DNA from: Clytia hemisphaerica
Taxonomy: Eukaryota; Cnidaria; Hydrozoa; Leptothecata; Clytiidae
Length of the DNA stretch: 64,000 nt
Direction of reading: 5' to 3'
Assembly: GCA_902728285.1 (NCBI GenBank)
Contig: CACVBU010000196.1
Coordinates: 374,769-438,768 of the forward strand
The notes below the pieces were generated by a model, which was not told the origin of the DNA, made no database searches, and saw nothing but the letters and a program-made list of their open reading frames with translations. Positions within the stretch are counted from its first letter, which is position 1; each line of letters opens with the position of its first letter. Below are positions 2,409-54,309 of this stretch, in pieces. The translations under genes and the position numbers were made by a program.

Positions 2409-2540
2409 GCAGGGCTGTCAGATTTAGGACCACTCAGAGGGTAGTCACTTTCCAGGCCCTTATTCACAAAATTTCACTTTCCAGGGGTGTTGACTCCTAA
2501 TTTCCAGGGGATAGTTTGTTATCCCAAATTTCCAGGGGGG
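2409..2540. repeat. Orphan element end with TTTCCAGGGG words
   Basis: CAGGGCTGTCAGATTTAGGA begins a segment with four or five CTTTCCAGGSS or ATTTCCAGGGG words and no second terminus. Confidence 0.5.
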
Positions 2541-2994
2541 TGAGTGAAAAAATTTCGTCAATACCCCTGTACAATTTTCTTTTGGAATAGCGCCCATTCC
2601 AAAGAATTCAGAACAACAGATCCAAGACTGATCGCGCTCTCCCAAACAACTATTATTGTCAATTCAAATGTTTAAGCAAGAAATGGAAAGGAGAAACTGT
2701 CATACCTGCATCTTACTGCAACCTGGATGTTTTGATTTTTCCCTTTAACCATGTCTTCTCACTAAAAATGTACGATCGCCCGAGTTTTCTGATTTTTCTG
2801 AGAGGACCTCCGCACTGTTCAATGTTTACAAGCTTCTGGCTAAAATTTGGAGCCAAATTTCGAATTTTTTCATCTCCCAATCAGAAGTTTCAAAATTTTG
2901 TCGGAGTTGTCCAGCAACCTAAAGTCAATATATTGTAGTTTGATTGCCGTATATATGAAGCTTGCTCCACGGTCCGAAATAACATATCAACAAT

Positions 2995-5900
2995 ATGGCG
3001 GCCATGAGTTTAGCATGTGGATTTAGAAATTTTGCTTTTCGAAGTTCTGTTCCAGAGCTACAAATAGTTGCTGGCTTGAATACGTCTGTTCCAGGTACCT
3101 TTCAATGTTTTTTTTATAATATACTTATACATACCTCTGTTCTGATTTTGCATTGGACAGCTCATCCAGCCAACTTGTACCATCAACTGCTCTAAAACTG
3201 TTGCAGTTCGCTTCGTTGGAATACCGGTTGAAACACTTGTGAGTTAGTCACACTAGCAAATTTAGCTTTCAGAAAAAACAACATCAGTCATCTACAGGAT
3301 GTATTTCAACAACAAGGATGAGAGTTACCTGAATCAAGTTAAAGATCCCAAGACGACAATCAATTAAAACTTGAAAACTTAAATTCAGACAAAATGACCG
3401 ATTGCGAAAACGTGCAGCAGCCAAATATCAACCAACCAAATTTTGTCATTCAATTCCCAAGACAGCACTTCGATTTTTAAGGCCTTGTTTATACGCTACA
3501 GTAAAAATAATTCCGCACATGTAAATGGGTCATTGTTTCAGCCCTGTGAATCCAGGTCGGCATTCGGCAATGCCGACCTGAAAGCCGACGTAACTTGAGC
3601 TGAAGTCGGCTTTTATTTGCCGACGTAATTTACACTCTAGGTCGGCGTGCCGTCAAAAGAAATGTTTTGGGTCGACAAAGCCGACCTAAGAGGAAAAATA
3701 TTATTTGTTAGGTTAACCTAATTGTGTTATCATTTGATAACACATGATAATCGAGCCTCGTTCCATTCTTTTTATAAAACATAAAACTTAATAACACAAT
3801 TACCGTAGAGTCGTTTAATCTCGACATACGTCTTGCAATCTCGACATAGCTGTAGGCTGGTCTTCGAAATAAAAAATCAAACATAAACAAATACATACCA
3901 AAGTTATCAATCAATCACTAAAATGTACTCTCTCTCTATCACGTCACAGATTGTTAATATAATATGAGAAATGTGAAGTGTTATTACTTATACTTATATT
4001 TGAAAAGAAAACTTTAACGATGTAGTAATCGCTAAAAACTAATTAGCATGCTTTCAACGAAGATGTCTAAATCACAACAACACAACATTTTGCACGCGAT
4101 GAATTTTTTAGTACCGTAAACGGCCATAACTTGCAACACGGACTTAACTTGCAACAGCTTTGTTTATTTACGTTTTCTCCACGTTGATTGCTTCGTTTTC
4201 TTTCATTTTTTCAGGGAATGTTTGAAATGGTAAACTACACGTTAATCAAGCAAAACAAGCCCGATTGAATAATTTTTCGCGAAGATGAAGATGAAAAAGT
4301 GAAAATAATTAGGTCACTCCAATAAACCCCCACGCTTGGGCGATTGACGTTCTCTTACGATGCGATTTCTAGAAAGTTCGAAAGAAGAAAGACGAGGCCT
4401 TGCTGGGTCGAAATCCGCAGCTCGTACAGTTTTTCGTTCTTCCGTATTCTTCTATTGAAGTTGCTAAATTACATTTCACAACGAAGAGACGTTTCGATGC
4501 ATAAATTGGATAATTACCAATGCTTACATGTTAAATCAATCAACCATGTAACTGAAGGATCTCAGCTGAAGTTCTGCTTCCTAATGTCCCATACGAAAAC
4601 TAATCATGTTAATAACAAGACTGGTGTCATAAAAGTGCCTCAAAAGAAATCAATAAAATCATTCGTCGTTAAACTGTAATCATCAATTTTACGATCAGGG
4701 GGTCAAGGATGTTCAAGTGCGTTTCTTTATAAGAAAAATTTAATTGAATAAGTTCTCCAATTCGTTGGATTTACGGAAAAAAGAATGACCAAAAGACAGG
4801 ACGGATAAAAAAAGCAACAACCAGGAATGAGGAGTAAATTCAGAGCCAATTTTGTAAAGTATAGAAATGCAAGAAGGATAAGAGCTTCGGAAAAGAAAAA
4901 CACACCCTGTACACGCTAATTTTGAATTTTTCTTAAGAACTTTTTTAATCAAAAGCGATTATTTTTCCTTCAAACCTGTTCCGAATTTAGTTAAGATACA
5001 GGGGTGTAAAAGAAAGTATATGTAACACTGTATATGGACGTTTCATCGATCGATATAGATTGTGAGACAGGGGTGTGTGCAAAGTCAACGTCAAATGAGC
5101 GTTATGAGTATTCTGATGAAGATGAGATGAGTATTCTGATGAATATAACGGTATCTCGTCAATGGGAACCAGAGAAGGAGTAGCGTATTAAACAATCATT
5201 TCTCAGTCTAAGAGGGGTCACTCTTTGCGAACGCAGAACTCCGGGCAAACAGTGACGGGATACATGGTAAAAAGTAAATATCCGTTTTCTTCTCGAATTT
5301 TAACAAATCTCCTATATATATACGGTAAATCATGTCATGCCGAAACATCTGTCTCAGAGCCCCGGTGGAATTTTTTCCCACAACGGGGCCAATAATTTCT
5401 ATCAAAATCTCTATGGGGATAGGAATTCTATTGTTCCAAGCTTTAAAATACACAATGTAGATGGTTTTGGAGTGCAATTTTTTACATTGGATGGATTTCA
5501 AATGGGGATGAAATCAACGGGGACGAACTTTTTTGTATCTATTCAACGATTCAATGCAAAAATTAGATTCTGTAATTATATAATACATAAGCTCGAAAAC
5601 ACTCTCTCTCCTCTCTCACCCCGGAAGTAAAGTTCAATAGCAAAACGATGAATGAATTTGGCATACTATGACGAGGATCGGGGATTCCAACGGTAGAAGA
5701 CGAAAGACTTAAAACAAATAATATATTAAACCGTTATTTATACGTATAAGCTTTCCCGAGCCTATTCTCTTCCTCGAATGTCTTCATTTTGTGTTTTATC
5801 ACCACCAAAAAAATGTGTCAAACTTAAAATTTGAAAGAGCAAGGTGGTTGTTTTTTTGTGGAAACACGCAAATAGTGATACCCAATAATATTCGCTAAAG

Positions 5901-8900
5901 ATTCTTCCCGAGAAAAATTTACGCGTTTTTAGTGTTCCATCCCTATGAAAGTATATATTATATATGATTGAATCTCTCCAGTCAAAAACATCTAGTACTA
6001 TATTTCGATAAAACTTTCCATTTTGTTAAGGGAAGACTTCTTGCCTTACAAATTTGGCGAATTCGGCAAAATTTCTCTCTCAAAAATTTTCATGGAAATC
6101 CATCTATACGCTATTTCCAAATTTTGAGTCCCATAAGATGGTAAATCACAATAAGGTACGGATGATGGTCCTTGATTTGTTACCGTAACCTGCCGTCGTA
6201 ATTCGTTTTCATCTCAGCATACTTTAATTGAATTAATTTTCGTAAGCTGTAATTTTGCGAGGCAAAAGGTTCGTTTTTTTGAATTTATATTCACTAATCG
6301 GCGATTGCAAAACAAAAGTTTTGCGAGTATTGAATTTCGCAACTCAGTTTTCTCTCGCAATTTAGCAAGATTTTATTTTCGTGAATGAAAGGCAAGCATT
6401 TGCAAAAAAGCGAAAATATAAATTCGCGAAAATTAATCCAATTAAAGTAGACTTTATTTTGCTTTAATTGAGATGGGGGTGTAGAAGAATCATTCAACTC
6501 GTCGAAGGTACGAAATCCCAGACCTTCGTTACACTGAGTTTCTCCGCTTAGTAATGCCCCCCGTCTTTCTATCGATGTTTTTGCAAATGTTCCCTTATCG
6601 TCATAAAAAAGCCAAACCAATTATGAATTTGCATGTGTGAAAAGTAATCGTAATTCACAAATTGATCCGTCTTTTGTCTACAACAACGCACTCCATCGTT
6701 GTGCCATTTTTTAATTATGCTATTAAAATTTGTTGAAATCAAATTTTTTTCATGTGATAGAGTTGGCGCGTGCTCAGTATGTTGTTGTTATGAAATTAGC
6801 ACCGTTGCAAGTTGTGGACTTTGAAGAAAATTTTTTGGTCATCTTTGGATTAACGACGTTTTCGATTGAAGTTTCTGTTTGGATCAATGTATGGTAATCT
6901 AAAAAGGAATAAGGTAGAAGCTTATTTTGTGAAAGTTTCATTGCTATAACTTTTCTAGGTTAAAAGATATAGCATCGTTTAGTCAAAAAACGCTGTTTTT
7001 CGTTGCAAGTTATGGCCGTTTACGGTAGACATTTTTACCGTGAACCGAAAATAATAAAAAGAACCCGGTTTCCTTTTGAATTTAATGTGACCGCCATACT
7101 GGCCATCACAGCGTGCGGCCTGTTAGCGCCTAGAGCGTGTGTTTTTATATATAAGGAAGGGGAAACCAGGCTAAGCGCGCGAATTATTTTTATCACGTGA
7201 CTTGAAGCGTAATAAAGTTGTAAAATTTTAATGATGGACACGAGAAAGTTACGAGGAAGTTTGCATGCGTTTCGTGTGTTGTGTAAAACTGCTTATAATT
7301 TGGCTTTCTTTTTAATTGAAAGGATTGCAATGTTTACTGAACTTCTAGTTTGATGGATGAACTTGTTCATAAGAATGATACCAAGAATTTCATTCAAGGT
7401 TTGTTTTGATTATTTTACAGATCCGGTGTCGAGATTGCAAGACGTATGTCGAGATTAAACGACTCTACGGTATAGAGCAGCTGAATTTGTTAGTTGGTTA
7501 ATTTTCTTCCTATTTTGTCTTTGCCGACCTAAACAAGCTACTTAGGACGGCTTTGCCGACCTAAAATGACCTCTAGGTCGGCAAAATTTTGCTGGCCTAC
7601 GGCCGGTTTTGGTCGGCACTTACGTGCCGATGTGATTTTGTCTGAATTCACAGGGCTGTTGTTTGAGGTCCGGCAAAATTTCCGGGAAATAGCCTATCCG
7701 ACGGTGCGCGGATCTAGGTGGGTTCCGCCTCCCCCGTAGATCTTTTTCTTGGGAAGTTGATCTTCAAATTAGTTTTCAAGGTTGGCTTGGCTCAAATTTT
7801 TTCATCTATGGCTCAAATTTTAGGCAATTTCTTAAAGTTTTTGAAAATTTTAATTTCATTAAAAATTAATGAATCCCTCTAGAAGTTTTGCGGCGCATTT
7901 TTTTGCTTGAGAGTCAAGTGATCGATAAAGCGCTTTTAATTAATCTTTGATACGCATTTTGGCGGGACGCTAGTGTGACTAACTGTTTGGGAGGATTGGT
8001 TGAAACATGCTGCATATATCTGGTCTGTATTTTCACTTATTGTAAAATCGAAAGAGAGATCCGTGTATTTTTAAATTCGCCGTTCCTTAACTCAAATCAA
8101 ATGACTTTGGAGGTTTGATAAAATGGTGGCCAAATTGCCGTCCCATGTTTTGTCAGTAATGTTGTAAAGTCGTCCCAACAGAGCAACATTTATGGAAAAA
8201 ACTCTTGTCTAATGCTCATTCCGACATTTTAAATTTTCCAGGGGTTTTGCTGTTTGGGATTGTTTAGGTCAGGGTTGCTAATAGCGGCTTGTCACTGTGC
8301 CGGGTGCATACTCGGCGCCCTGAGCCCCGCAGGGTTGCTAGTAACGGCTCGAATTTCAGTCAGGTTAAAAAAGGGGCAATTTTACCCATATTATAATAAC
8401 ATTACCCCCGTCTTTTTATTCATTCAATAAGTATTTCCAAATTTGGTGTTCTGCTGAGCGAGTGTGGCTCAACGGATAGCGCGCTGGGTTTCTGATCAGA
8501 AACTCTTTCATTTGGTGGGTTCGAATCCCTGTCGAGTCAATATTTCAAGGTCAGTTAAAACACTTTAAAATAGTCAGAAAACATAGTAAATAAGTCAGAA
8601 AGGTCACCAGGGGGTCAGAAAAGAGCCTCAGAGAAGATAGGCAGAAATAAAAAGTCGATGTCGGAACGAGCAATAGACAAGAGTTCTTTCCAACATTTAT
8701 ATGTATAATTGAGTCAGCTTACCTAAGGTGGAAATAGTTGGCAAGCAGTGACTCGTCTGGTCAGGCTAGCTGCTAAAGCTCTACACAAGTGTTACGCGTA
8801 AGCCAAATCGCGTATTACGAACAACCTCTAAATTGCCGAGTACAGGAGAAAAAAAATCGAAATTCAAAATGGCAGCCAAGCCCACGCTGATAACTATAAA

Positions 8901-11900
8901 ATACTTTGTTTTTCATGTTAATGAACTTGTTACTTAAAATATCACTTACTTACATAATTTATTTATGATATAACACCCCTTTCTTAAATATATAAATGGC
9001 CTCTTAAAGTCTTTTATGTTTAATCAATTAATTAAATACCGATTAAAAACGATAATCGATAGCTGATCGATACTCACAATTTTTTAGCACTCAATTAAAT
9101 TATCATAGTAGATTTTTAATCGATAATATCGTTTACAGTGTTGATAATTGATAATATCAATTAATATTGATATATAATCGATACCCCGACCTTATCGATT
9201 TTTAACACGTTTTTTTTTAAGAAACTAGTTTTACCAAGCAGCCTCAATGTTTCTTTAGAAATCTGCCTTTTGAGCCTTAAATGTTTCTTACATGCTTCTA
9301 AACTTTTTGACATAATCAGCCTCATGGAAGGCTGGATTGGAAGGTTGTTAAAAAAAACGAATAAGAAATGTTATTTTCTCATTCTCAGCCTCAGCATGTT
9401 TCTTAGTTTTTAGGCATTCTGAGCCTCGTGTTTCTTAAAAGTGTGTTTCTTAAAAAAAAAACGTGTTCAAAATCGATAATATATGAAACTTGGATCGATA
9501 TCTAATTAATATAATTGATATCTTATGTTATATCTGATCGATATAATCGATACTCACAATTTTTTTATTATTTATCGATTATCGCTTTTAATCGATATTT
9601 AATCAATTGACTAATTATCGATTAGCTATCAATTTGTATTCGAAAATTGCACTCGTGATTGTTTTGTTTAGAATTTTCCTCGTCCTTTCGGACTTGGAAA
9701 ATTAATAACAAAAAAATCACTTGTGCAATTATTCTCAAATTGTACTCGTTATCATGTGATTACAAGCTAATCGCGCTACTTTTTCCCTGTTAGGGAAAGT
9801 AAATTCCACTAAAAGTCATATTTTTTGTCTTCTCTCTATGTTATTCTTTTATTGTTGTTTATAAATTTTCTTTCTCTCTAAATGAATTTCGAATGCAATT
9901 AAAACATTCGATGAAAAAAATGTAAGAAAAAAACATTAAATTTAAATTCAATTTTGTAAACATTGGCGCGACATCGAAGAGTGTGATTAACGATTAATTG
10001 CTCTCTACAGGATGCAATTAACAATTAATTGCTCTCTTTGAAGGAGCGCCAAATAAGAAAAAATAACTCATCGTGCGATTATAATTGTAGCTGCCGTTCA
10101 GGTCGAAATAGGGTCAAAATAGGTAGCGAACGACATAAAAATTAACACGTAGCCAAAGGTTTTCTTGAACGCATCTTCACGGTAGAAAATGGCTAAAAAT
10201 GAATAAAATAACACATTTTAGCTAGCGAAATATAAATACAGTACAAGTCAAAATATAAAGATAAATCAGTTAGATTACAAAGACAAGTCAAAGATATAAC
10301 ATATAAAGAAGAAATAGAAACTTACTAAAAACACTGTGACTGAACATACACGTACACGTCGACAGATAATTGCAACTGACACTCACAATTCCAACACGCA
10401 GATTTATAACACATCACAACAACTCATACAACAACTAGACGATCCACAAGGGACGAACACGTAACTATACACACAATACAGTACTATACAATAAAATACA
10501 CAACTCTCTAGACACATAATAATAAACAATACACATGGGACTAATACATATTATATAGTAATCATTTATATTTCACTACAAAAGTCCTATCAAATAATAA
10601 ATCTAAGAACAAAGGAAACGATGAAAACAAACATAAAACTAAAAGACAAATTAGCTGCATTTTGGCAGTTACACTCCCAACTGTCAAGAATACTAATTCT
10701 TGACACACCAAAATAAAATCCTAACATCACGTATAGAACAATCAAAAAGTATAACATAAGACCGACAAGCAACACAATGAAATTAAAATCAAGAAACGAA
10801 AAATACATCCAAAAGAATCGTAGAAAGATTCTATTATATAACAATCTTGATGACATCATGTCATACAATTCAAGTTCCTTGTTTTGCCGTCTTAATTCCT
10901 CTGACCAAGTCTTTAACAGTTTGAAGGAGTGCAATATCGATTGTGCGAAACCTTTATGATTTTCCTCAAAATAAACTGCTGATTCTTCGGATGGTTCAGT
11001 AGAATCGTTGGGTTCTAAATATGAGTACTTAATTCGAACGAACTTGAATTTCCTTTTTTCAATAGCAGCAGTTGAAACTTTGTCGCAATGATGTGCAACT
11101 TCTTGCACAGACGGGGGTGAGACAATGCTCGCATTTCTCAATTTCTCGACGTTCAAAACTTTGTCAAAAATATGTGCAACTTCTTGCACAGACGGGGTGA
11201 GACTACGCTCACATTTCTCAATGGAACTTCTTCCAAGACTGGATTGACAAAGTAATGATCTTTCAAATGATCAGGAGCAGAATCTAAGAGTTTGTAGGCG
11301 TTTTCAATTAAGTTCTTACCATATACATCTTCATCTGGGCAGTTTGACAGTAAACATTCGTAATCTGAGTAAAACTTTAGGAAATCATTCAAAAGTTTTA
11401 ATAGTGCGTTGTGTTCACCACGAAACATCCAAACGACCAATTCAATATCGTCATTACTTTTGAAGATGTATTCTAGAGTTCGACAGGAGTGAGAAATTGC
11501 TTCGATAAATTTAATCCTCTGAGTACCAAACTGGTAGGCCAATTCAAGCGACATATCGTTTTCAAGTTAAATAAATAGAAATCATATTTCGACAAACCAT
11601 ACGAGTGTTCTTTCATCAACTTTTAAAACTGTAACTAAGATTCCATTGGTTGAGTCCATCAAACAATTTACTGCCATCGTTGCACGAGCTTGTTCATAGT
11701 GTTTTTACTGTAGCTGCCGTTCGGGTCGAAATAGGGTCAAAATAGGTAGCGAACGACATAAAAATTAACACGTAGCCAAAAGTTTTCTTGAACGCATCTT
11801 CACGGTAGAAAATGGCTAAAAATGAATAAAATAACACATTTTAGCTAGCGAAATATAAATACAGTACAAGTCAAAATATAAAGATACATCAGTTAGATTA

Positions 11901-14900: not shown

Positions 14901-17900
14901 GCAATTTTGACGGGATTATCCAGGTCTCTGCGAATAACATGGCCAAACCAGGAGAGACATCTCTTCCTAACGATGTCAACAATGGTGGTGGTGACTCCAA
15001 GCCGGTTTCTGATTTCAACATTACGAACACGGTCCATTAAATGTAAGGCCAAGAAGTGATCTGAAACATCTCATTTCGAAAACTAGCAGTAACTGTGTAT
15101 CTGATTTTTTCAGTGTCCAGGTTTCCGAGGCATAAATTGCTATGGGGACGATGAGCGCGTTGTAGAGTCGTAATTTCAGCTTCAGCCTTATGTTACGCCA
15201 TATTTGATCTCTTAAGCGTCCAAAGCTGGAAGATGCTAAGCCCAGTCTTCGTTTGATGTCATTTGTAGTGCCTAGAACGTTACTTCCCAGGAAAACAAAG
15301 TCACTGACATTCTCAACGCTCTCATTGTTGATTTGAATGGGTACTGGCGAGTTACTGATGGTTTTGCATTTAGATGCGTTGATCTTCATTCCCCATTTGG
15401 AACAAGCGGTCTCAAGTTCAGCTGTCGATATTTCTAATTTTTCAAAGATTGCCGTCACAAGTGTAGTGTCATCAGCATACCTAAGCTCCATGGACATATT
15501 TTCTTTTAGTTCAAGGTGGTCATCGAGACTCTTCAGCTCATCCATAACGAATTCCAGAAATATGTTAAATAGGACTGGAGGTAGCAGACAACCTTGTCGT
15601 ACACCAAATTTCAAGGCCGTTGAATACTTTTAAGCCTAGTAATATTTGTATTTACTCTTATTGGAACTAATTTTCGCAGGCGCTAATTTTCGTGGTCGAA
15701 AAAATATCCGAAAAATTGCATTTCACGGGTTTTAATTTTTGCATTTTTTTTTCATTCTGGAATTTTCGCTGGTTTTAATTTTCATATTTTTGCCCTTTTT
15801 TGAACAAATTTCTTTCATTTTCCTAGGGATTTTTCCTATTTTTTGATAAAACAAAAAACGCTAAAATTAATTCCCGCGAAAATTAGTTCCAATAAGGTAC
15901 AATAAGGTAGTTTTTCACAATCCATTTTTCTTTTGAAGTACTTTACCAATTCTCAAAAGTTACCCTCATTTTTTCTCTTGTGCTTAGGTCTATCAGATGA
16001 GCCTACTTTTATTTCTTCTGCTTAATTTTGGTTGACTCCCCTACCTAAAATCTCCATACAAAATTTATGGAAAATGCATATTTGGGCTTTGTATCCAATG
16101 CTGCATCCAAGCACTTCAAACTAAAGTCCTGCAAAAGTAGGACAACAATCAGTTCTTTGAAGTTTGCAAAAAAAAAAAGCTACATTGAAGATCTTCCAAA
16201 TTCAGTATCCCAGACGTAATTAATCGAGCTTTGTTGTCCAATTAATGTTCTACTAAGTGAACTTTAATCAAATACTCACAAATTCTTCAAAATAAAAATT
16301 TTGATTAAAGAAATCGAACTAAAATAGAACTCTTTAAAAATAGAGACCTTTAATAGTTCGATTAGTTTGATTACATTAAACAACCTTAATCGAACTTAGT
16401 CTCACTTAATATGTTTTGTCGAACTTAACTGAATACTCACAATTTTTGCGGCTTTTAAAGATTTTAATTAAAGAATGTAATCAAACTTTTGTAGTTCCAG
16501 TAAGTTCGACCAAGTTCGATTAGTTCGGTAGTCGAACTGTTCTATTAATTACGTCTGGATTATTGTGAATAAAAATTGTATATAGAAGTTATCTCTGTTA
16601 TTTTTTAAGTAAAACTATGCCATTGCAGAAATAATGTAATTTTCATGAGCACAAGACTCAATAAATCAAACAATTTAAACACAAAACTAGCATTACACAA
16701 GTGACAATAAAATTGTGAATATACAAAATAGACAATAATTACCTAGGGAGTAAAGTGTTAGTATATATAAGTTATAAGTATTATTATTATCATGATATGT
16801 ACAAAAGAAAAAGAAAATTTAATTGCAATGAGTTATATAACAAAGAGTGAAGGGTTGAATATCATGATATTAAGTTTGATTGTCACGGCGATGTTATGGA
16901 AGGGGGTGGGGGTTTGTAAATAAAATCAGCATTTTTCGTGGCATGTTTGAGTTTGGATGGCTCCCCTTAGTGTGTAATTTTGTTGAAGAATGATTAATTT
17001 ATCTTCTCTTGAAAACCAAAATTATATCATATCCTCTCATCTCTTAAAACCATCCTTTCAAAAAACCTTTTAATGTTTGGACATAAAAAAACTTTTAATT
17101 TCTTAGAAGTGACAGCTAGCGAAATGAGCTTAATTATCTTTGATACTTGCTAACAAAATTTCAATTTGACTAGCAAAGGTTTTGTTTCACTTTGCACCCT
17201 TTTACTTTAGAAATTTTACACTGTTTGCACATTAAACGGTTCATAAGCTACCGCTGTAATTAGTGTGGGTTATAGTTATTTACATTTATTAAAAAGAAAA
17301 ACTGGTTATCAGACCTCACACTATGGTCTCAACCAGGAATGGATACTTGTAAAATTATTATAAGTTACTAAAGGAGGGGCAACTTTCCCAGGACGTTGTC
17401 TTCTCAGGCATATTATTGTTCGTTATTTTAAGGAGAAAATCTTTAATTTTGAGATATTATGTTGGACTGTTTGTATGCTGCGTGTTGATCTTTCAAGATG
17501 CTTAAGATGAAGCACAAAGAAAAAAAATTTGGCAAGTTATCCAGATAATTGTAAACAATGACAACTTGGTAGGGCAGGATTTCATAAAATAAGAGGCTCA
17601 AAATATATGGGGAATGTTATGTTTTTTTGAGGCTACTATATACGGGGATGAATATCTCAGAAAAAAAGTAAACATTTCACCAGGGTGTGAAACATGGTCC
17701 TGTGCCAAGATAAAGGAAAGTGAGTTTTCAAATACCGTGATACAGACCTTCAGACCCTTGCCACAAAAAATTGATGGCTCTCCTTACTCACTATATTTTT
17801 CTCTAATCAAGGAACAGACACAGAAAGTAAGTAAGATGTGCCGGTAAAAAAATTATTATTATACAATAGATTGGATGTTGTGAATTTTTTTTATTCTTTC

Positions 17901-21876: not shown

Positions 21877-22116
21877 ATACATTTTTTTATATAAGAACAA
21901 TTTTATAAGAAGACAAGGCTGAAAATTGGTCAAAACCTATGAACAAATTAATTTAACAGTTTTTAATAGATGGTAACTAAAGAAACTAAACTTTTTAAGA
22001 GAACAAGAGAACATCGTGAGAACAAATAAGCCTGAAAATTAAAAAAAATTAAGAACAGCCCAGCCCGAGTCAAAATTTACCTGTTCTTATAAAAAGAAAA
22101 GCGTGTACTTTAAGTT
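21877..22116. mobile_element. ACACG-T(n) family element, AAGAACA words
   Basis: TATACATTTTTTTATATAAG at the left and GTTCTTATAAAAAGAAAAGC followed by GTGTA at the right. Its words read AAGAACA/TGTTCTTA. Confidence 0.6.
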
Positions 22117-23576: not shown

Positions 23577-24060
23577 TACCTTATCGTCCCTTTTTACGCC
23601 GGCTCTAATTTAACGGCGGCCCCTTTTACGCCAGCCCTTATTACGCCACAGCCTAATTTTGGGCTTACGCCAATTAGGGCTGTTAATAACCGCAAAATTT
23701 GTAAAAATGGCTACTTATGCTTTAATTTAAAGATTAATGACTAAAATTTACATCAAAATGTCATCTTGCAGTAGTAAACTGTTGAAAGTTCCACCGAAAA
23801 TCACTGATTTTTAAATATATTAAATATTTCACTGAAGTATTAAATATGGAGTAAAACAATGGGTTATTTTCGTCTTCGAATCATACCTAAAATCCTTTAA
23901 ATTGAGATATAATGATAAAAAATTAACGCCACCACTTTTAGTTTAAAATTGCAAAATCTTGGCCCTTTTTATGCCGGCCCTTTTAACGCCGGCCCTTATT
24001 ACGCCACGAGTCCAACAATAACGCAAATAAGGGCCGGTGTAAAAAGGGCGAATAAGGTGT
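23577..24060. mobile_element. Foldback element with TTACGCCGGCCC words
   Basis: TACCTTATCGTCCCTTTTTA at the left, complemented by AAAAAGGGCGAATAAGGTG at the right. Words of the type TTTTACGCCGGCCC, TTACGCCAGCCC and TTACGCCAC recur at least six times, in 23595-23670 and 23960-24050, with an AT-rich unique centre. Confidence 0.75.
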
Positions 24061-27010: not shown

Positions 27011-28236
27011 TTAAAGAGGCCCCCCCAGCGGACCCAAAATTCACGCCATCACGCCATTTTTTTTCCAATTTCACGCCATCACGCCTGAAAAATTTGATTT
27101 TCACGATCACGCCAATTTTTCTCGATTTCACGCCATTACGCCTAGAAAATTTAGTTTTCACACTCATATTCTCTGGATAAATTCAGTTTTTAACCACGTT
27201 TAGACCCATTGGTATGGATAAAATGCCTTTATATAAACTTAACTTTTGCCCACAAATAGGTGTGTGTTTGGTCGTCAATCAGTTTTTTGGCATTCTCGTA
27301 CGCGTAAGTCAAGATTATATCATTTTTCCTATCGGAAACACCCGAAAAATCTGGAAGGAATTTGACCTCTGTTTTTCTATTTTTAGTAATACACAGGGGT
27401 CAAATTCCAGTTTTTCCAGGTGTTTCGGATAGGAAAAATGCATGACGTAATCTTGACTTATGGATATCAAAAATTGTTTGACAACTGGTGGGTCACATCA
27501 AAGGACCCCGGCTTGAGGGCTGAGGTATATTGGAGTAAATTGACAAAGCCCACCATGGATCGGCAACGGAGAAAATTTTTGAATTTTGAAGGGTTCAAAG
27601 TGCTATTTTAGGACCCATTTCAATTCAATTTGAAAAATAATTCATGTAAAAATAATGGAAATCTTTTAAAAGTACAAGCAGCTTTTTTGGTAAAAACATG
27701 AGGGGCCATGCCCCCTCTGGTCCAATTGTGAGCATGCATCAATTGTGAATGAGCATGAATAGTTTTCAAAAGGGGAACGAGGAGGCGCAACCATGGTTTG
27801 CGCCGACGAGAGAGATTTTCAATTTTCAACCCTCTCATAGCATTCGACTTTATTTTGAAGACTAGCTAGCAACTGCTAAAGACAATTGGAAAATGGCAAT
27901 TGAATAAAACTGTTTGCACCGTTTCTTTTATATTTTAAAATGAGATCTATAGGAGGCCGCAACTAACAGTTGGGGCCGACCAAGAAAATTTTGAAATTTA
28001 AACCCTCTAAATTGGCTAAAATGGACATAGAATTACGATTTAAATAATAAATATAATTTTCACGATCACGCTGAACTGCGAATTTCACGCCATCACGCCT
28101 AAAAAAACTCGATTTCACGATCACGCCAGCACTTCATTTTCACGCCATCACGCCGTTTTTTTCAAAATTTCACGCCATCACGCCACGAAAAACCCTCCAT
28201 CACGCCATCACGCCAACCACTGGGGGGCCTCCTTAA
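27011..28236. mobile_element. Word-array element, CACGCCATCACGCC words, 1226 bp
   Basis: Ends TTAAAGAGGCCCCCC and GGGGGGCCTCCTTAA are inverted. The words TTTCACGCCATCACGCC and TTTCACGATCACGCC occur about five times at 27040-27145 and about eight times at 28060-28215, all in the same direct orientation. The core contains a separate palindrome (27305-27460) and unique AT-rich DNA. Confidence 0.8.
27305..27460. mobile_element. Perfect-ended 156-bp palindromic MITE nested in the CACGCC element
   Basis: TAAGTCAAGATTA, then CATTTTTCCTATCGGAAACA, with the complement at the right (TTTCGGATAGGAAAAATG, TAATCTTGACTTA). GGAATTTGACCTCTG pairs with CAGGGGTCAAATTCC around a short loop. Confidence 0.75.
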
Positions 28237-28523: not shown

Positions 28524-29063
28524 TACTCTCGGGTGCCTAATAAACGTACATGTACGTTTATTTTTTCGTATCAAATTTCCCGCCTGTACGCACCTTATTA
28601 GGAACTGTACGTTTATTTATTCTGAAGAATTTTCCCGCCTGTACGTTTATTCCCTCCTGTACGTTTATTTACTTTCACCCAATATCGCCCAATTCATACT
28701 GCAAAAATTAGTTATTTTTTGTTCAAGTAATAAGATATGTTGAAAGGCGGTTAATTACATTCGAACGTATCGTGGGAGATTTCGAGTGTTACGCGAGTTA
28801 ATTCGAACGTTTTGCTTATTTAGTACTTGTCATTGATCTATAAGATACATGTACTTAAGTCAGTCGTTTCGATCTAGATGTTCTACTTTTGAAAAATTGG
28901 TAGATTATTCCCTGTACGTTTATTTCAGCCTGTACGTTTATTTATTTTAGCTCTGATTTCTCGCCTGTACGTTTATTTCAGCCTGTACGTTTATTAATTC
29001 CAATTTTATTCTCTCCCCTGTACGTTTATTTTGGTCTGTACGTTTATTAGGCACCCGAGAGTA
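28524..29063. mobile_element. Word-array element, CTGTACGTTTATT words, 540 bp
   Basis: TA|CTCTCGGGTGCCTAATAAAC at the left with its exact complement at the right, then TA. CTGTACGTTTATT occurs about ten times between 28590 and 29048, all on the + strand, with one inverted copy forming the left terminus (ACGTACATGTACGT palindrome). The centre (about 28680-28900) is word-free. Confidence 0.85.
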
Positions 29064-30611: not shown

Positions 30612-30868
30612 ACACGTTTTTTTTTTATAAGAACGTCAAAAATTTTCGAAGCCTTCGGATGTTCTTAGTTTTTTGGATTTGATGCCTAAAAATGTTCTTA
30701 AAATGTTCTTATTTTCAGCATTTTTTGAGCATTCTGTTGTAATTTCTTAAGAAATTGTATGTTTTTAAGTCTCCAAAGCCTTAGTATGTTCTTAGAATGT
30801 TCTTAGATTTTTGGGCCTCGAAGCCTTATGTTCTTATATAGTTTGTTCTTATAAAAAAAGAAACGTGT
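30612..30868. mobile_element. ACACG-T(n) family element, TGTTCTTA words
   Basis: TACACGTTTTTTTTTTATAA at the left; TTATAAAAAAAGAAACGTGT at the right. ATGTTCTTA occurs six or seven times and GAAGCCTT/AAAGCCTT three times within 257 bp. Confidence 0.8.
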
Positions 30869-31721: not shown

Positions 31722-33170
31722 ACGAGGTGGGGGGCGTACGAAGTTTTGAATTACCGCCATCCCGGCCATTTTTTTGAAAATTACCGTTATCCTGTCCAAA
31801 ATTTACGAAAATACCGGTCCCGCTGTTTTTCCCATAAAATTCTAAAGACTAGAAGTCAAAAATTCGGCAAAATGGAATAGAATGTGTATGAGGTAGATCA
31901 TTATTTTCGTATTTTGTTTCGATTGCAAAAATTTACAGAGATAAACTACCTTTCTAAAGAAAAAAATGTACCGGGTGTCCCATAAAAAAAGTCCGGACGT
32001 TTGATTATGTCAAGGTGGAAATGTTTAGAATAGAAAGACTTTTTTATGTTAATGTGGTACTAAAACTTTGTCATTTTAAAGTTAAAGCACGCTTTTGAAA
32101 ATGTTAAAAAATGTTCAAAAAATAGCACAGTTTCACGAAAGGAGTTTCGAGTTTATCTTGATTGCTCTACCAAACCTAATTTTCTTTGCTGGATAAAGGT
32201 TAAAACTGCAATCTACTTTAGGCGTACAAACTTTCGCGAGCAGAAACTTTCGCGAGGACGAAAAATCGCGAAATTCACGACATTTACTTTTGCGAATTTA
32301 ACGGAAAAATATTTTTCGCGAGCATAAACTTTCGCGAATCAAGACGTAAAATTGAGAATTTTCACATGAAAAAATGACTTAGAGGGACAATACTTCTTGG
32401 ATTGGCTTGAAATATTTGTCCTTTGACTTATTAGTCTTTTAGCAGGCTAAAAAGTGCCATAAAAGTCACATTTTATTCAAAGTTTTAAGTTTTACAGATT
32501 TTCTATTTTGTCAAGAATTTTTTGAAGGGCGAATGGCCCTTCCTAGAATTTTTAAAGACATTTACTTTCGCGAAATGGACCAAAATTCGCGAAAATCGCG
32601 AAAGTTTCTGCTCGCGAAAGTTTGTACGCCTAAAGTAGCCCTTCCGGCTATGATAAATCATTGAAAAAAACAAGCAAGGGATTCATCACCCAAGGAACAA
32701 GAACAAGCGTGCAAAGTTTCAGCCGAATTCGACCATTTTTGAAGACTCCAGCCTGCCCCAAAGTTTCGATGTGACAGACAGTTATTCTAGCTCAACTTTA
32801 CAAACCCAACGTTCTCCTCCCTGTATTAAAAAGCCTCAAAAAGCCTCAAAATAAACCCATTCCTGGTGTAAGATCCTTTTTTTTGGGGGGAGTTTTTCAC
32901 GTTTTTTTTACCTTTTTGCTGACTCCTGTGACAAGCTTTTTTTATAGTCCGAAAATTTTATGTACCGTCTACGTATGTCTTTTACCGAAATACCGTTGTT
33001 TTTTATAAGAATTACCTCATCCCGGACGAAAAATCAGGTGTTTTACTGTCACCGTGGCTCTTTCAAAATACCGTTTCCCGAATACTTTTTATCGTTTTTA
33101 CCGCTTCCCGGCCCTAAATTAGGCCTTATCCCGAGTACCGCCAGATCGTACGCCCCCCACCCCCTACGAG
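31720..33170. mobile_element. Word-array element, GGTGGGGGGCGTACGA ends, TACCG/CCCGG words
   Basis: Inverted ends GGTGGGGGGCGTACGA at 31726-31741 and 33146-33165. Words of the type TTACCGCCATCCCGGCC occur about four times at the left and seven times at the right. The interior holds a solitary mariner end (CCGGGTGTCCCATAAAAAAA at 31972) and the complete 32214-32637 foldback. Confidence 0.75.
32214..32637. mobile_element. Foldback element with TTTCGCGA words, 424 bp
   Basis: TACTTTAGGCGTACAAACTT and its exact complement at the two ends; the arms continue with TTCGCGAGCAGAAACTTTCG. The word TTTCGCGA (or TCGCGAAA) recurs about ten times, mostly near the ends. A diverged copy lies at 59030-59403. 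This one is inserted in the larger 31720-33170 element. Confidence 0.85.
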
Positions 33171-43504: not shown

Positions 43505-44557
43505 ACACGTTTTTTTTAATAAGAACATTCAAAATTTTTGAAGCCTTCGGATGTTCTTAACTTTTTGGGTTTCAAGCCTAAAAATTTTCTTATTGTGACC
43601 ATTTTGTGACCATTTTTATCCATTTCCCTAAAAATTTTAATTTAATTTTGACTTCAATTCTTCCAATATCGCTACTCGTAGCCTTGGTTCCCTAGTCTCC
43701 ATTCTGATCTTTAGATTTAGCCCATCTGTTCTTAGGTTTACTTAGTTTGTATTTTCTTCAGTGCATATGACTTTATTATATTTCTAGTTCTATGAAGTTT
43801 TTTTTCTTCTATTTGATGTTTAATTATTTTCAATTAATTTAATTTAGATAGTTGATAGCTCACTTATTTATGTCAAAATACTGGTCGTGTCTTGCAAGGT
43901 CCAGTACACTTTTACACAGCCTTCGGTGTTGCAATCTATGCAAGTTTTGCTCATTCTATCTTACGCTCTGTCGTGATTTTATCTCACTGAGTTCTTAGAT
44001 CTATTTTGTCGCTTATTTTACCTCTAGCCACCAATAGTACTTGAACCTTAGCCTAGTCCTAACTTATAACATTATGTTAGTATTTTTTTTTTTAATATAT
44101 TCGTTAATTTTTTATAATAGCACACATTGCGATGGCCTCAGCTAGCATACTCAGATACTCGGATTTGTTTAGGTTTTAGTCTAGCTCTATCACTATTCAC
44201 ATTTACCCCTCATACTTCTTAATCCTAATCATTTTATTCATCATACTAGCCCACCGCTTCATCACTATCTGCTTGTCCCATACGGCCCCAATTTTTCTTC
44301 AGTATACTACCAGGTTATTTTTCAATTTTTTTTCTAGACATTGCACATATATTATATACAGAATTTTCAGGTGAAGAGCCAAATGTAAATTTTGGAAATG
44401 CCAGAAATATATCATTATTATTATTATTATTATTATTAAAAATCGGGTGTTTGTTTGTTTGTTCCTCAAAGCCTTAAAATGCTCTTAACTTGTTCTTAAC
44501 ATTTTGGCCATTGAAGCCTTATGTTCTTATTATAATTTGTTCTTATAAAAAACGTGT
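43505..44557. mobile_element. ACACG-T(n) family element with an inserted LINE-like 3' tail
   Basis: ACACGTTTTTTTTAATAAGA at 43505 and TTCTTATAAAAAACGTGT at 44557 are its two ends, with TGTTCTTA and GAAGCCTT words beside each. The intervening 43620-44440 ends in AATTTTGGAAATGCC and an (ATT)n run, the look of a LINE 3' end inserted on the + strand. Confidence 0.65.
44411..44438 (+). repeat. (ATT)n microsatellite
   Basis: About nine ATT units, probably the tail of the inserted retroelement. Confidence 0.85.
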
Positions 44558-45263: not shown

Positions 45264-45513
45264 TACCTTAGGAAAACTATTTTTTGCGGGAACTAATTTT
45301 TGCGGTTTGCAGTTCAAGATTTAATATTTAATATTTGCGGGAACTTAATTTTGCGGATTTCTCACTTGAAAGAAAATTAGAGCCGTACTGTGAATTATTC
45401 GACCTTTGTTTTCACATTTGAAAAGTTTTGCGGGAACTTAATTTTACGGTTTGGGCCTAAATCTGCAAAAACCGCAAAATTTAGTTCCCTCAAAAATTAG
45501 TTCCCTTAAGGTA
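45264..45513. mobile_element. Foldback element, TACCTTARGGRAACT ends, TTTTGCGG words
   Basis: Left TACCTTAGGAAAACTATTTT, right AAATTAGTTCCCTTAAGGTA. GCGGGAACTWAWTTTTGCGG words recur five or six times across 250 bp. Confidence 0.75.
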
Positions 45514-46604: not shown

Positions 46605-46740
46605 CCAGTTGCAGAAGGTGGAAGTAGATCAGAGTCATCATTTACAATACAAAACAGCAGGACCTGTTTTATAAAGATTACTAATAAACCTTTCTATTGT
46701 TATTTTATCTCATATTTTGCTTGGTACCTCACGACACACA

Positions 46741-48566: not shown

Positions 48567-48684
48567 ATGAACTTCTTGGTTTGGAGGTATAATCTGCCAT
48601 AAACTCTTTAAGAAATACCATTGACTTACTTTTAGCCATTGATTGGCTCACTAGATCTGTGATTTTTTCAATATAAAAATTTTG

Positions 48685-49005
48685 ACACCCCCTTCTCACA
48701 GACCCACTGGGAACCCTTCCCACTGGAAAAATCGGCCAAAATATCTTCCCCGGGGGAAAGTTATCTTCAAATTTCTGTCCCCACTATTTCTGTCCCCACT
48801 GAAAATAATCAAATAAACCGATCCTCGCTGAAAAATATTATGCTATTTTTCCCATTCCCACTGAATTTTCTGACTTGAAAACAAAAAAGAATTGAAATCC
48901 CTAGCCATAAAAACTATGGGAATATCAATCCCCATCCTGCGTCAGTCCATTATTTTTATCCGCACTGGCTGAAAAATATTCTACCGGGTCTGTGAGAAGG
49001 GGTGT
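48685..49005. mobile_element. ACACCCCTTCTCACAGACCC foldback just after the bZIP stop codon
   Basis: ACACCCCCTTCTCACAGACC at the left and GGGTCTGTGAGAAGGGGTGT at the right, 321 bp. It starts 119 bp after the stop codon, so it may lie in the 3' untranslated region; an AAATAAA is inside it at about 48809. Confidence 0.8.
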
Positions 49006-49806: not shown

Positions 49807-51039
49807 CAGCACCCGACCCCGAGAATGTAGGTGAAATTTGAATCAGACCTGAGAGATGTAGATTTGCATTTAAAAAAATATTGAATGTTTTAAACGAAAT
49901 TTTGAACTCCCAAAATCCTTTCCCAGGGGTTAGTTTCATTACTTTTGATAGATAGGCTAATTTTTTTGGTCCTTGAAGTTGACTCCCATTTTCGTTATAA
50001 CCCCCAGAATGTAGGTATTTTTTCGATTGAATTAATTATAACAGGAAATTTTAGAAATATTTTATGCCAAAACAATATTCTAAAGAGCTTTTGTTATTCT
50101 GAAAATTGGATTTTTTCGCTTTTTAACCCCCAGAATGTAGGTGAAAAGATTCGGTTGTTGAGAGCGAAATTTCAGTATTCATCAGAAATTTTTGTTCTCT
50201 AAGTGAAATTCATACTTTAGAAATATACTCTGACAAAAAATTAACAAAGATATTAATTTTATCGTGCTACACATGATGAAAAGTAAAGAACGGACGAAAA
50301 GATGAGACGAAAGTTGTTTTCTTTGATAGGTGAAGATTCTGTGTCAAAATATATGAATAATGTAACAACACCCCTGCCTCACAGCCCCGGTGGAACTTTT
50401 CCCACATCAGGTCAAAAAATTTCTACTAAATTCCCAATGGGAATAAAAATTATGTTGTTCCAAACTTAGGCAAATTTTCTGATTGGGCTGAGGTCCCAGC
50501 GGGTCTGGGACACGTCATAAAAGCTTAAAATGCCAACATTAATCATCTCTCAGGTAATACTTTCATGTTATTAAAGTACAACAAAAAAGTTTTATATAAT
50601 TTGACAGACTTTTTATGTCGGGTTATGAAAGCCCCTAAATTGTAGGTCAACTAACCCCAAAAGGTAGGTCTAACATTTTCGTTAAAATATCTAACTTAGA
50701 ACAGTAAATATTGAAATGGACTATTTTCCACATTTCCTTAGTTCATTAGGAATAAGAAAATACCCTATCATCATAACTTAATTCCAATAGATTTCGATTT
50801 AGAGAGGATTTATTTAAGAAATGTCTCAATTCGAGTAGTATCAAATCAACTTCGATTCAGATTTTCGCCTGAAAAAAATCAATTCAAGTTAAAATTTTAT
50901 CTCTAGAAATAACCAGTAATATGTAACAGTATCCTCTGAAACAACTTTTTATGAAGTTGAACTATCGTTAGGGCTACCATGCTAAAAAATGAGAAACCTA
51001 CATTCTCGGGGTTTACTACATTCTCGGGGTCAGGTGCTG
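49807..51039 (+). mobile_element. Tc1/mariner-like non-autonomous element, 1233 bp, complete
   Basis: Inverted ends CAGCACCYGACCCCGAGAAT, flanked by TA on both sides (49805-49806 and 51040-51041). The word AACCCCNAGAATGTAGGT recurs inside at about 49820, 50005 and 50128, with weaker forms near 50630 and 50655 and inverted forms at the right end. The middle (50365-50520) resembles the foldback family found at 48685-49005. An inverted relative occupies 1-915. Confidence 0.75.
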
Positions 51040-52784
51040 TATGTACGTTTCCGTGGTTGGTAGTGTTTTGCAAAGCCAGTTAACAATCCAACTTCAAAAG
51101 GAGAACATGAATTTCTACCAAATTAGAACCTTTTTTTCACAAAATCTCTTATCCAATTTTTCCGTAAAATACATTTTTAAAGGGTGCACAATGTTAACGG
51201 TATTTTATGTACAGTCCAGTCCTCTACAAGGTAATAATTATTGGACCAATTTTCAAATTAAACGACCAACCAAAATTGAAAACCAACTGTTGACGTCAGT
51301 TCAAATGGAGGGTATTTTACTTCGCATTATTTTATATTGACCTCCCCATTAAACAATTTTCATTCTTTATAATTTCCTTTCAGCCAAAACAATGGTCGCA
51401 GTGTTTTAAAATCGATGTAAAACCACACACCACACCGATAAAGATTTCGTAGGTGTAATATGGCACCAGACAAACGATCCAGGTTGGAAATTCAAGGATA
51501 GACCTATTTCCACAAGGATGTCTCCGAAATAATCGAATACTTTCCAGCAAATAACATCTAGGTCACGGCATACTTCATTGGAATAAAATTTCGCGGCGAA
51601 TTAATTTTCACGGATTTGGGTGTCATCCACGAAATCAAAATTTAATCTCAAATGGATATTTTGAACTTTTAGGGGGGGAAATCATCCTAAAATATTCTTA
51701 TAATATAATCCTAGGTAAGGATTTGACTAAGCCTTATTCTAGCATGTTATAGCAAAGAGCATGAGAAAAGACATTGCATTTTTTTGAAAGTTTTTAGCAT
51801 TGCTGGAGGATATTTGGCAACTTCCAGGTAAAATGCTCTTAAAATCAACATTCTTTAGGTTCAGTTGCCAAATCCCATGATGGTGTTATTCTTAGCATAT
51901 TCTTAATTTTTTGGTCTATTGCAGCATGAATATCCTTATAAAGTATATTCTTTTAAAAAAACGTGTAGGGCCTAAAAACTGGAGCTGTCTATTGTGTAGA
52001 CTAGAAGCAGTTTTGACCTTAAAAACCCTTGAAACCAAAAACTAGTAAAATAGTCTATTTTACATTAACAAATTCCGTCAATTTGCGCATAGTGTCAACA
52101 ACAACATTGCTTAGACTAGTCTTATTAGGACTCTAGGTCAAAGAACAAACCATTCAATCTCACCAGCTCACACAAATGAAAACCCTTGCACAAATTGTCG
52201 ACCACTTTCCATTCGAGTTCACAATTAAGATGACCATTTGATGGAGGAAGAATTCACAGTAAACAACACTCACTTCCGTGGCGCATTTTGCTTCGAATTT
52301 AGAAGACACGTCGATATTCTTGATTCAATGGCCGAATAAAGCGACCTGTTATTTTAGGTGTTTTGATTCTTGCACCCAGAGCTACTTGCACCACCACTTG
52401 AAAATTTAACTATCCCTTTCTAATCTTATCTGAAAACACACAAACAATAAAATGTATTTCAAAACCTCATTATAAATAAATTTATGCAAAACTATAGTAA
52501 AAAAGCCTCCTAATTTGGAAAAAACATTAGTTACTTGGTCATGCTTTGTTTTTTCTCGAAAAAGAGACTGGGTCTAGTGGTATGTATTTGTTATGTGCTC
52601 AAGCAAAGATAAAGGTGGAGTCTGCCGTCCGAATATGAGAAAGTATAATTTTTCGTGCATGTGAAAAAAGCTTTAGCAGCAAAATTCCAGTCTATCAGAA
52701 ATAAGTTATTCTTTGAAAACAATGGAATTTTGATTCAACTTTCACATTCCTATTTGAAGAAGGGATGCAACGCATAGAGCTCGG
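51040..52784. other. Intergenic stretch with element fragments
   Basis: 51575-51625 is a solitary TTTCGCGG-type arm. 51667-51966 ends in the ACACG-T(n) right terminus (TTAAAAAAACGTGT) with ATATTCTTA words. 51980-52590 shares pieces with 37.4-37.7 kb. No gene seen. Confidence 0.45.
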
Positions 52785-53325
52785 TAATGCATGTCCCAGA
52801 ATCGCATTAATTTTTCGCCCCCAGTTCCAGACCCTAAACCATAACAAACTATATATATCTGGATACGTATTTGGATGTAGAATATCGTATTCGGTGTAAC
52901 TTAATTTTTTTCTCAGTATTATTAGAGATTTAAGAAAACCTGATTATGACGTCATGATTGATGATGTCATAAATACAAAAAGTGGAATATCTCGAGAAAT
53001 ATAAATCAAAACTTTATGAAATTGGGGCCAGTGATTAAGTACATTGAGATGTTTCAAAGATTTTTTAAAGTATTTCCCAAAATTAATGACGTCAGCAGAA
53101 ATTGCAAGAATTCGAATTTTTGCGATAAAAATATGACATCAGCAAATTAAAATTATAACGTCATAAATAATGACGTCATAATCACGTTTTCTTAAAAAAA
53201 ACTCTTCTGCTGAGAAAAAGATTAAGTTACACTAAATTTGATATTCTACATCCAAATATGCTTCCAAAAATGTATAATTTGTTATGGTTTAAGAGCTGGA
53301 GTAGAAGAAATTGGGAGATGCATTA
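52785..53325. mobile_element. Foldback element with about 165-bp arms and CRE (TGACGTCA) words
   Basis: Outer ends TAATGCATSTCCCA; the arms pair through AAACCATAACAAA, TATTTGGATGTAGAATATC, GTGTAACTTAAT and CTGAGAAAAA. Perfect TGACGTCA sites lie at 52947, 53087 and 53171, with near-matches (TGATGTCA, TGACATCA, AACGTCAT) between. Confidence 0.75.
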
Positions 53326-53451
53326 AGTTACCCGAGAGTAGATCATGATTATGCCTCTGAAGGGATGATCTTCCATTTCGGGCTCTGGGTCTGTAAAAAG
53401 GTCATTAAAAAGAAATGGAGTTGAAATGGATGCTTACCACAGGAAAAAATT

Positions 53452-54309
53452 TTCGATTTCCAAGGTTGGAAATTTCAAGTTTTCTTAGATGGAAAAAAGA
53501 TAAAATCCAATGAAAAATCCAACCTGGAAATGTGGGACATTCTCCAAGGTTGGGAATTTTGCATTTTCCATGGCTTGGAATTTTTAAAAATCCAGGTTGA
53601 AAAAAGCCAAAAATCCAAATTTAACAAGGTTGGAATTTTTTAAATTTCAGTTGGAAAAAAGCCAAAATCCAAATTTAACAAGGTTGGAATTTTCAAAAAT
53701 CCAGGTGGAAAAAAGCCAAAATCGTAACCAAACAAGGTTGGAATTTTTTGAAAATCTAGGTTGAAAAAAGCCAAAATCCAAAAAGTGATAGCAGAGATGT
53801 GGAAAAAGAGATCTTAAACAAGGATTTTGTTTTAGTGAACAGTCACTATATACATTAAAAGAGTTTTGAGCGAAAAATCGCTTGTGGTTTTCTCAAAGGA
53901 CAAGCGCAGAAAATGGTTACAAAAATGTAATTTCCACATGGATTTTTAACGTTTTCCAAACTGTTTGGGAGAAACAAAAATTTCCGACCCAAAAAGTCTA
54001 GTTTTTCAACCCGAGGTATCAAATTTACATTCACATCGATTTTTGACCTTTTTTTCAATTCCCAAACTGTTTGGAACATAAAAATTTCCCACCCAAAAAG
54101 TCATGTTTTCCAACCAGCCTTGGAAGATTGTCATTTCTACATGGGTTTTTTTCACTTGATTTTTCAAGGGCATTGGTTTATTCTACAAAACCTATGGGTA
54201 ATTTACGTTTTCCAAATCAGCTTAAGGTAATCGCCCAATTTTCAACCTTCAATTATAAAACCAAAATTTCCAACCCAAAAATATTGAATTTCCAACCTTG
54301 GAAATCGAA
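53452..54309. mobile_element. Word-array element, GGTTGGAA words
   Basis: TTCGATTTCCAAGGTTGGAA and its complement at the ends. GGTTGGAA words fill the left half and TTCCAACC words the right half, so the arrays are themselves inverted. Some open frames cross it but none looks real. Confidence 0.75.
53571..53786 (+). repeat. Four tandem 54-bp units in the GGTTGGAA element
   Basis: Each unit carries AAGGTTGGAATTTT, then AAAATCCAGGT and GAAAAAAGCCAAAATCC. Unit starts recur at exactly 54-base spacing near 53571, 53625, 53679 and 53733. Confidence 0.75.

Follow-up and report, generated by a model that had tools for sequence, protein, structure and literature searches.

The 64-kb window analysed here, a stretch of the Clytia hemisphaerica genome (C144:374769–438768 in the genome assembly), is crowded with terminal inverted repeat (TIR) elements, many of them carrying a short repeated word that is private to their family (Table 1). 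An earlier note on this DNA had described at least nine such elements with one shared plan, namely short inverted ends, a quieter centre and many copies of one word, mostly near the ends. Several families were overlooked there: the TAAGAACA elements that occupy 11 places in the window (the E10 series), the AGAATGTAGGT family at 49807–51039 with a second copy at 3–917, the TTTGCGG/TTTCGCG elements at 45266, 15655 and 6222, and the elements with TCTCGACAT (3803) and TAACTTGCAAC (4114). What had been taken as a single element at 3539–7658 was resolved into four nested ones (3539–7658, 3803–7470, 4114–7025 and 6222–6447), and the element placed at 31720–33170 was corrected to 31727–33164, which encloses 32216–32635. 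Because of this nesting, part of the quieter centre consists of later insertions. Its gene content is eukaryotic and animal-like, with an exon of a bZIP gene at 47793–48566 (bZIP_2, 1e-11) and part of a reverse transcriptase (RVT_1, 4e-14), and searches of the window with Rfam and ARAGORN returned no family at gathering score and no tRNA, respectively.

Table 1. Word-bearing elements and their relatives in the window (window coordinates; empty cells, nothing reported).
Element	Position	Strand	Word	Ends and other features
E1	3539..7658	+	GTCGGC/GCCGACCTA, both orientations	TIR CAGCCCTGTGAAT; 6-bp duplication TTGTTT; encloses E2, E3, E4
E2	3803..7470	+	2x AATCTCGACAT, 20 bp apart, per TIR	TA-flanked; TIR CCGTAGAGTCG
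E3	4114..7025	+	TAACTTGCAAC, one-end pair 18 bp apart; inner words mirrored	TA-flanked; TIR CCGTAAACGGCC
E4	6222..6447	+		TA-flanked; TIR CTTTAATTG; alignable to E6/E12 word sites; no word excess
E5	9020..9614	+	(T)AATCGATA, both orientations	Ends unsure; encloses E10 member D
E10 member D (E10p)	9206..9465	-	TAAGAAACA	Flanks AA/TT here, TA in L029 copy
E6b	15655..15897	+	TAATTTTCGCGG, pairs 16 bp apart	TA-flanked
E15	16210..16558	+	TAATCGAACTT, both orientations	Target duplication unclear
E10 member I	21880..22105	+	TAAGAACA	TA-flanked
E7	23579..24057	+	TTTTACGCCGGCC, one direction	TA at left end in window copy, at both ends of most copies elsewhere
E8	27016..28231	+	(A)TCACGCC, 15/15 in one direction	6-bp duplication CTTAAA
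E9	28526..29061	+	CTGTACGTTTATT, pairs 18 bp apart; inner words in one direction	TA-flanked
E10 member A	30613..30867	-	TAAGAACA	TA-flanked
E11	31727..33164	+	TACCGCCATCCCGG, degenerate	6-bp duplication TACGAG; encloses E12a
E12a	32216..32635	+	AAACTTTCGCGA, pairs 16 bp apart	TA-flanked
E10 member B	43506..44556	-		TA-flanked; carries insert
E6a	45266..45511	+	AACTAATTTTTGCGG, pairs 16 bp apart	TA-flanked; distant kin of L041:1506-4326
E13	49807..51039	+	CCCCGAGAATGTAGGT	TA-flanked; partial second copy 3-917
E10 member E	51652..51965	-	TAAGAATA	Tail end not defined
E14	53439..54322	+	AAGGTTGGAAATT, mirrored between ends	Target duplication unclear
E10 member F	56239..56589	-	TAAGAATA	TA-flanked; ends match L034:617-3556
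E12b	59032..59401	+		Second E12 copy; TA on right, TC on left

Words were counted inside and outside their element and compared with 30 dinucleotide shuffles each, with the number of mismatches set by word length, and were found to be concentrated in their own elements, as the earlier note had expected. Copies inside and outside the element numbered 11 and 2 for GCCGACCTA, 6 and 0 for TTACGCCGGCCC, 9 and 3 for CACGCCATCACGCC, 11 and 2 for CTGTACGTTTATT, 10 and 10 for TTTCGCGA (7 of the 10 outside copies fall in the second copy at 59032–59401), 7 and 9 for GGTTGGAA, 3 and 0 for AGTTCGATTAG, and 1 and 1 for TACCGCCATCCCGGCC; shuffle means for all eight ranged from 0 to 0.23. The words originally given for 31720–33170 and 16210–16559 were weak as exact strings, with 1 and 3 copies. 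The four orphan ends of the earlier note (2409, 33430, 36836 and 37765) were assessed by eye.

In a blind test the best 8-mer was picked afresh for each of 25 TIR elements with the right TIR arm masked, and 300 non-element segments (maximum 4) and 200 Markov sequences served as controls. Every control was exceeded by E1, E5, E8, E9, E10, E12a, E12b and E14 (8/25), and E6a, E7, E10p and E15 were marginal, meaning that ≤2% of each control reached their value. E6b was weak (reached by 3.3% and 17.5% of controls), and there was no excess in the other 12 elements (E2, E3, E4, E11, E13, E16–E19 and E21–E23). A second blind test used 12-mers with ≤3 mismatches on 24 elements and 80 control segments; E5, E6b, E7, E9, E10, E12a, E14 and E15 lay above all 80 segments, E1 (1.3%) and E8 (6.2%) did not, and 7.5% of its Markov controls reached the value of E6b. 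E11 showed no excess in either test. The observation of word-filled elements was mostly borne out; 12 of the 25 elements did not stand out by 8-mer count. Words are not universal to the TIR elements here, because the mariner-like E18 and E19 showed no excess. Tandem Repeats Finder returned rows in only some of the word elements; ordinary tandem repeats were considered as an account of the words and rejected.

Ten families combine TA target sites with TIRs that open with C, and the three inner elements of 3539–7658 each have TA outside a C-starting TIR. TAC was outermost in both arms in 7 of 29 TIR pairs (and in 1 more at offset 1), compared with a mean of 0.07 per inner offset; a looser test for TA was undiscriminating (16/29 at the ends vs. 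15/28 inside the arms), and only the strict TAC test discriminated. TA was present on both sides of E2, E3, E9, E12a, E13, the E10-series members A, B, F and I, and the coding element L034 described below. Among genome copies of E7 (19 rows, with one copy entered twice and copies without a located second end left out), 12 had TA on both sides, 6 on one side and 1 on neither. Wherever target duplications were clear they were TA or 6 bp; they were unclear in E5, E14 and E15.

The ends of the TA group often contain paired words as well. In the outermost 56 bp (with a few E10 ends placed 1–2 bases off), 10/15 TA-group word-family copies vs. 0/13 other elements had a direct repeat that matched at 11–12 of 12 positions with a lag of 15–20; the figure for random segments was 1.4% per end. 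The spacing was constant within a family, at 16 (E6 and E12), 18 (E9), 20 (E2) or 15 (near the E10 head), and the TIRs of E4, E6a, E6b and E12 could be aligned column by column at two word sites. Two further TA elements with words were seen in fetched stretches of the genome. L032:235–749 is a miniature inverted-repeat transposable element (MITE) of the E4/E6/E12 series, with TA followed by CTTTAATCGTAG, its own word AAATTTTAGCGA and six inner words all in one direction. L026:3852–4024 is a small element with TA followed by CAGTTGACGCTCTC and a repeated word around ATTCGACGCTCTACTATTCGA, the ends of which are similar in direct (z 9.3) and not in inverted (z -1.2) comparison.

Near the ends, where the earlier note had placed most of the words, most families proved to carry words that are not mirrored, which that note had missed. 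With TIR arms excluded, right-half words followed the majority direction of the left half in 37 of 38 cases across ten elements (E6a, E7, E8, E9, E10, E10p, E11, E12a, E12b and E13; words of E11 were called loosely, with ≤5 mismatches in 14). A motif-free comparison of the two subterminal regions inward of the TIRs gave direct z-scores of 8–16 and inverted z-scores <1 for E6a, E8 and E9; E7, E10p, E11 and E15 also leaned direct, E1 and E5 leaned inverted, and E10A, E12a, E12b, E13 and E14 favoured neither orientation. Inner-word orientation was mixed in E5 and E15, E2 and E6b had words in the arms only, and E4 had none in its left half. In copies of E7 elsewhere in the genome, 69 of 70 inner words ran one way (19 rows). 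Word polarity is one inherited plan per family, and not that many independent events.

The E10 series, which has ends of the form CACG(T/C)TTTTTTT next to TA, allowed words to be compared at homologous sites; one member used as a query matched 12 of the 28 stretches fetched from the genome (three pairs among them overlap). Members share word sites ~17, 32, 65 and 76 bases from the head, plus tail sites. With words called by best match and ≤1 mismatch, these sites were occupied by TAAGAACA in members A (9/9) and I (6/6), by TAAGAAACA in member D (6/6), and by TAAGAATA in members E (5/6) and F (6/6), and TAAGAACA also prevailed in the fragments G (4/5), H (3/4), J (2/3) and K (2/2). Beyond the window, a second D-type copy had TAAGAAACA at 8/9 sites and a T-type copy had TAAGAATA at 4/4. 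The spacers between word sites have diverged. Thus, the word was switched in concert at homologous sites among TAAGAACA, TAAGAAACA and TAAGAATA. The same change at ~6 separated sites would be hard to obtain by independent mutation or array duplication, and would fit adaptation to a protein with changed specificity. E15 was also considered as a case of concerted change and rejected, the differences of its L023 relative being explicable, by eye, by CpG decay.

Coding partners were sought in the window's own genome (417 Mb in 951 contigs), in which DDE_1, the transposase domain of pogo-type elements, was matched at least 77 times, compared with none in 14 control genomes; 12 of these loci (L030–L041) were fetched. 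The earlier note had proposed to look for full-length transposase-bearing relatives with the same termini, and one was found for the E10 series and a distant one for E6a. L034:617–3556 spans 2940 bp, is flanked by TA at either end and has TIRs CACGCTTTTTTTTTTATAAGAAT (CACGC next to TA). Its open frame of 726 aa contains DDE_1 (7e-14), and a C2H2 finger and CENP-B_N in this frame each scored under the curated cut-off (CENP-B_N, 19.3 bits vs. 21.2). All 8 of its TAAGAAT(A/G) words lie ≤130 bp from an end (17+, 32+, 65+, 76+, 2841+, 2852+, 2886+ and 2917-; Markov mean 0.41, maximum 3), with the spacing and polarity of the E10-series MITEs. The exact-word count was above expectation, and a scan allowing 2 mismatches was not (6 vs. 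a mononucleotide-shuffle mean of 2.5, maximum 8). The ends of L034 matched those of window member F at 88% over 86 bp and 82% over 107 bp, and those of member E at 81% over 86 bp and 80% over 49 bp.

The second partner, L041:1506–4326, has a 336-aa DDE_1 frame (1.6e-11) between TIRs in which TA is followed by CCTTAAAGGAAGAAATTTTGGCGGG (also written CCTTAAAGG). It holds 15 words, 4 of them in the TIRs and 10 of the 11 others in one direction (shuffle mean 2.1, maximum 6), and it matched E6a at 72.5% over 91 bp at one end, as a distant relative; its similarity to a sister in L016 was 71.5% over 130 bp. Aligned over 244 residues, the proteins of L034 and L041 are 19% identical (E 1e-4), and by hand count the third catalytic aspartate lies 35 residues past the second in both (DD35D). 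L037, L039 and L038 are further DDE_1 families with TA-flanked TIRs and private words in 10, 8 and 12 copies (shuffle maxima 3, 2 and 2). L031 and L033 share the L038 word, their second ends lying beyond the fetched stretches. At L039:3068–4279, a PHD-finger frame lies beside the DDE_1 frame in the same TA-flanked element.

Three elements, E1, E8 and E11, have 6-bp duplications, and GAGGCCCCCCCAGCGG ends occur in this group. E8 and E11 have G-rich TIRs, and the two ends of E11 differ in G count. Their left ends are similar (51, shuffle maximum 39) and their right ends are not (37, shuffle maximum 52). Two relatives of E8 in L024 (3994–4258 and 6014–6278) lie between perfect duplications of 6 bp (ATGACC and CTCAAA). 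They are packed with ATCACGCCATCACGC, which on visual inspection runs along a single strand. Word arrays in this group are similar to those of the TA group.

Several other repeats were observed in the window. Two 588-bp direct repeats (10086–10673 and 11709–12296), 98% identical and in the same orientation, flank two frames (226 and 137 aa) that matched nothing in Pfam, and may be long terminal repeat-like or a recent duplication. A TIR element at 8193–8692 has AACATTTAT (9 bp) at both flanks; by eye, ~8457–8545 within it resembles tRNA A and B boxes, and ARAGORN called no tRNA there. At 25603–26421 lies a near-palindromic mariner-like element without words, in which TA is followed by CCGGGTGTG, and it has relatives at 1158–1644 and 2255–2373 and related pieces in L012. 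A family with ends ACCCCTTCTCACAGACCC occurs at 44845–49002, 48686–49003, 29390–29530 and 39426–39719, and its copy at 48686–49003 (E21) matched 12 of the 28 fetched stretches. In scans of public collections for relatives, five had no match; the sole match was a stretch of a viral contig (L001; 51% GC) with a convergent array, which blastn at E 1e-3 did not align to the window.

The E10-series TAAGAATA type and the E6 series are pogo-type transposons and MITEs, because DDE_1 elements (L034 and L041) bear their ends. By extension, E2, E3, E7, E9, E12 and E13 would also be of pogo type, and we consider it likely that the TA-flanked elements as a whole (E2, E3, E4, E6a, E6b, E7, E9, the E10 series, E12 and E13) are MITEs or deletion derivatives of many diverged pogo-type (DDE_1) transposons, with words putatively read by the transposase. 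The words, inner ones included, are probably transposase sites, with a polarity relevant to the reaction. Transposase binding, already proposed in the earlier note, remains the interpretation that fits best, with indirect backing from the paired spacing, the concerted change and the ends of the DDE_1 elements: the words appear to be binding sites that keep pace with a DNA-binding protein as it changes, the transposase being the likeliest candidate.

A number of results weigh against this interpretation. Pfam searches of 10 open reading frames in the window found no transposase domain, and 5 of the 12 fetched DDE_1 loci (L030, L032, L035, L036 and L040) had no TA-flanked TIR in the fetched stretch, including the only two with HTH_Tnp_Tc5 above cut-off (L030 and L032). 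E2, E3, E4 and E13 had no word excess by count in either blind test. Inner words were mirrored in E14 (0/5 following the left half) and E3 (0/1), and words occurred in both orientations in L037–L039. Within the E10 series, member B was less clean (7/10 TAAGAACA, the other three forming one TAATAATAATA run) and member C was mixed (3, 2 and 2). Finally, one-directional inner words are unlike the prediction of a plain mirrored synapsis.

Several of these features could be accounted for if the words were minisatellite-like slippage arrays in inert MITEs, without function, their polarity stemming from one ancestral array split by a new centre. Words do run one way at both ends, some arrays are tandem (28910–29049 and 53575–53782), and the E8 sisters in L024 resemble a filled array. 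We nevertheless regard this account as improbable, since the E10 sites are homologous with diverged spacers but show the word change in every or almost every case, the spacing is constant while spacers vary, and an identical layout surrounds transposase genes. Less probable still is that the words bind a host factor, CENP-B-like or pipsqueak-like, that silences or aids the elements; CENP-B-type DNA-binding domains do occur in host proteins and the words are site-like at fixed spacing, but a private word per family and switching between sister families fit a family-specific protein better.

The earlier note had looked to plant hAT and CACTA elements as relatives, and a hAT- or CACTA-type origin would share the general plan of a short TIR with subterminal words. 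Target duplications are 8 bp in hAT elements and 3 bp in CACTA elements, which end in CACTA/G. Membership of either group was considered and rejected: all clear duplications were TA or 6 bp, and CACTA/G ends with a 3-bp duplication were not found. The coding relatives moreover carry DDE_1, which contradicts such an origin for the two series with a coding partner; overall, we give it hardly any credence.

If the words are indeed read by pogo-type transposases, each family's enzyme would bind its word through an N-terminal helix-turn-helix part. Direct word copies 15–20 bp apart near the ends, with more copies inside, would mark the element for the transposase, and recognised elements would be cut out and then inserted at TA. 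One-way inner words would give the element a head and a tail, the head being the end whose word pair runs in line with the TIR. When DNA-binding specificity shifted, the words of a family would change together, giving a new family with a new word. More tentatively, and at rather less than even odds, families may split by a change of address word, in which the TIR and one-directional subterminal words are replaced in concert as the DNA-binding part of the transposase drifts, the array providing a head and tail that are read asymmetrically, and the same polar plan having arisen in the TA and 6-bp groups. Most puzzling is that a polar plan is found in groups whose target duplications differ.

How a transposase and its sites stay matched as families diverge can usually be observed only in retrospect. 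In this 64-kb window, three word versions of one series stand at homologous positions, and because they share a genome with a coding partner for one of them, the question is directly testable. One-directional arrays clash with the usual picture of mirrored ends, and private words help to link MITEs to their transposase in annotation.

Among known systems, plant CACTA and hAT elements have subterminal word arrays that are thought to be bound by transposase; they resemble the elements described here in these arrays and differ in target duplications and transposases. Foldback elements with TIR repeats, such as Tetris, Galileo and sea urchin TU, are also similar in having repeats within their terminal parts. 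Their TIRs are long and their units longer (~220 bp in Tetris, with 8–10 bp duplications), in contrast to the short TIRs, 8–16 bp words and TA or 6-bp duplications found here, and Galileo TIR repeats are described as holding extra transposase binding sites (cited in PMC4079207). The closest likeness is to the pogo superfamily of IS630-Tc1-mariner elements (pogo, Tigger, Fot1 and Passer), which share the TA target site, DDE_1 transposase and short TIRs. The pogo transposase reportedly binds a 12-bp TIR sequence, a finding attributed to Wang et al. 1999. Passer transposase is DD35D (PMC9976928), as are L034 and L041 by our hand count. The suggestion that the window's elements belong to no described class was too strong: in fungi, the TIRs of Trem elements, which are of pogo/Fot1 type, contain direct repeats of 17 bp that have been suggested to be bound by the helix-turn-helix and CENPB domains of the transposase (PMC2836289). 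In open-licence PMC text, within the terms searched, no description of one-directional subterminal arrays in pogo-type MITEs, of many such families together or of concerted word switching was found. Unlike in the pogo superfamily, the word here also fills both subterminal parts, mostly in one direction, and many private words occur side by side. Direct repeats inside TIRs are thus already known, and the additions made here are a one-directional private word that fills both subterminal parts, many such families together, and concerted switching of the word.

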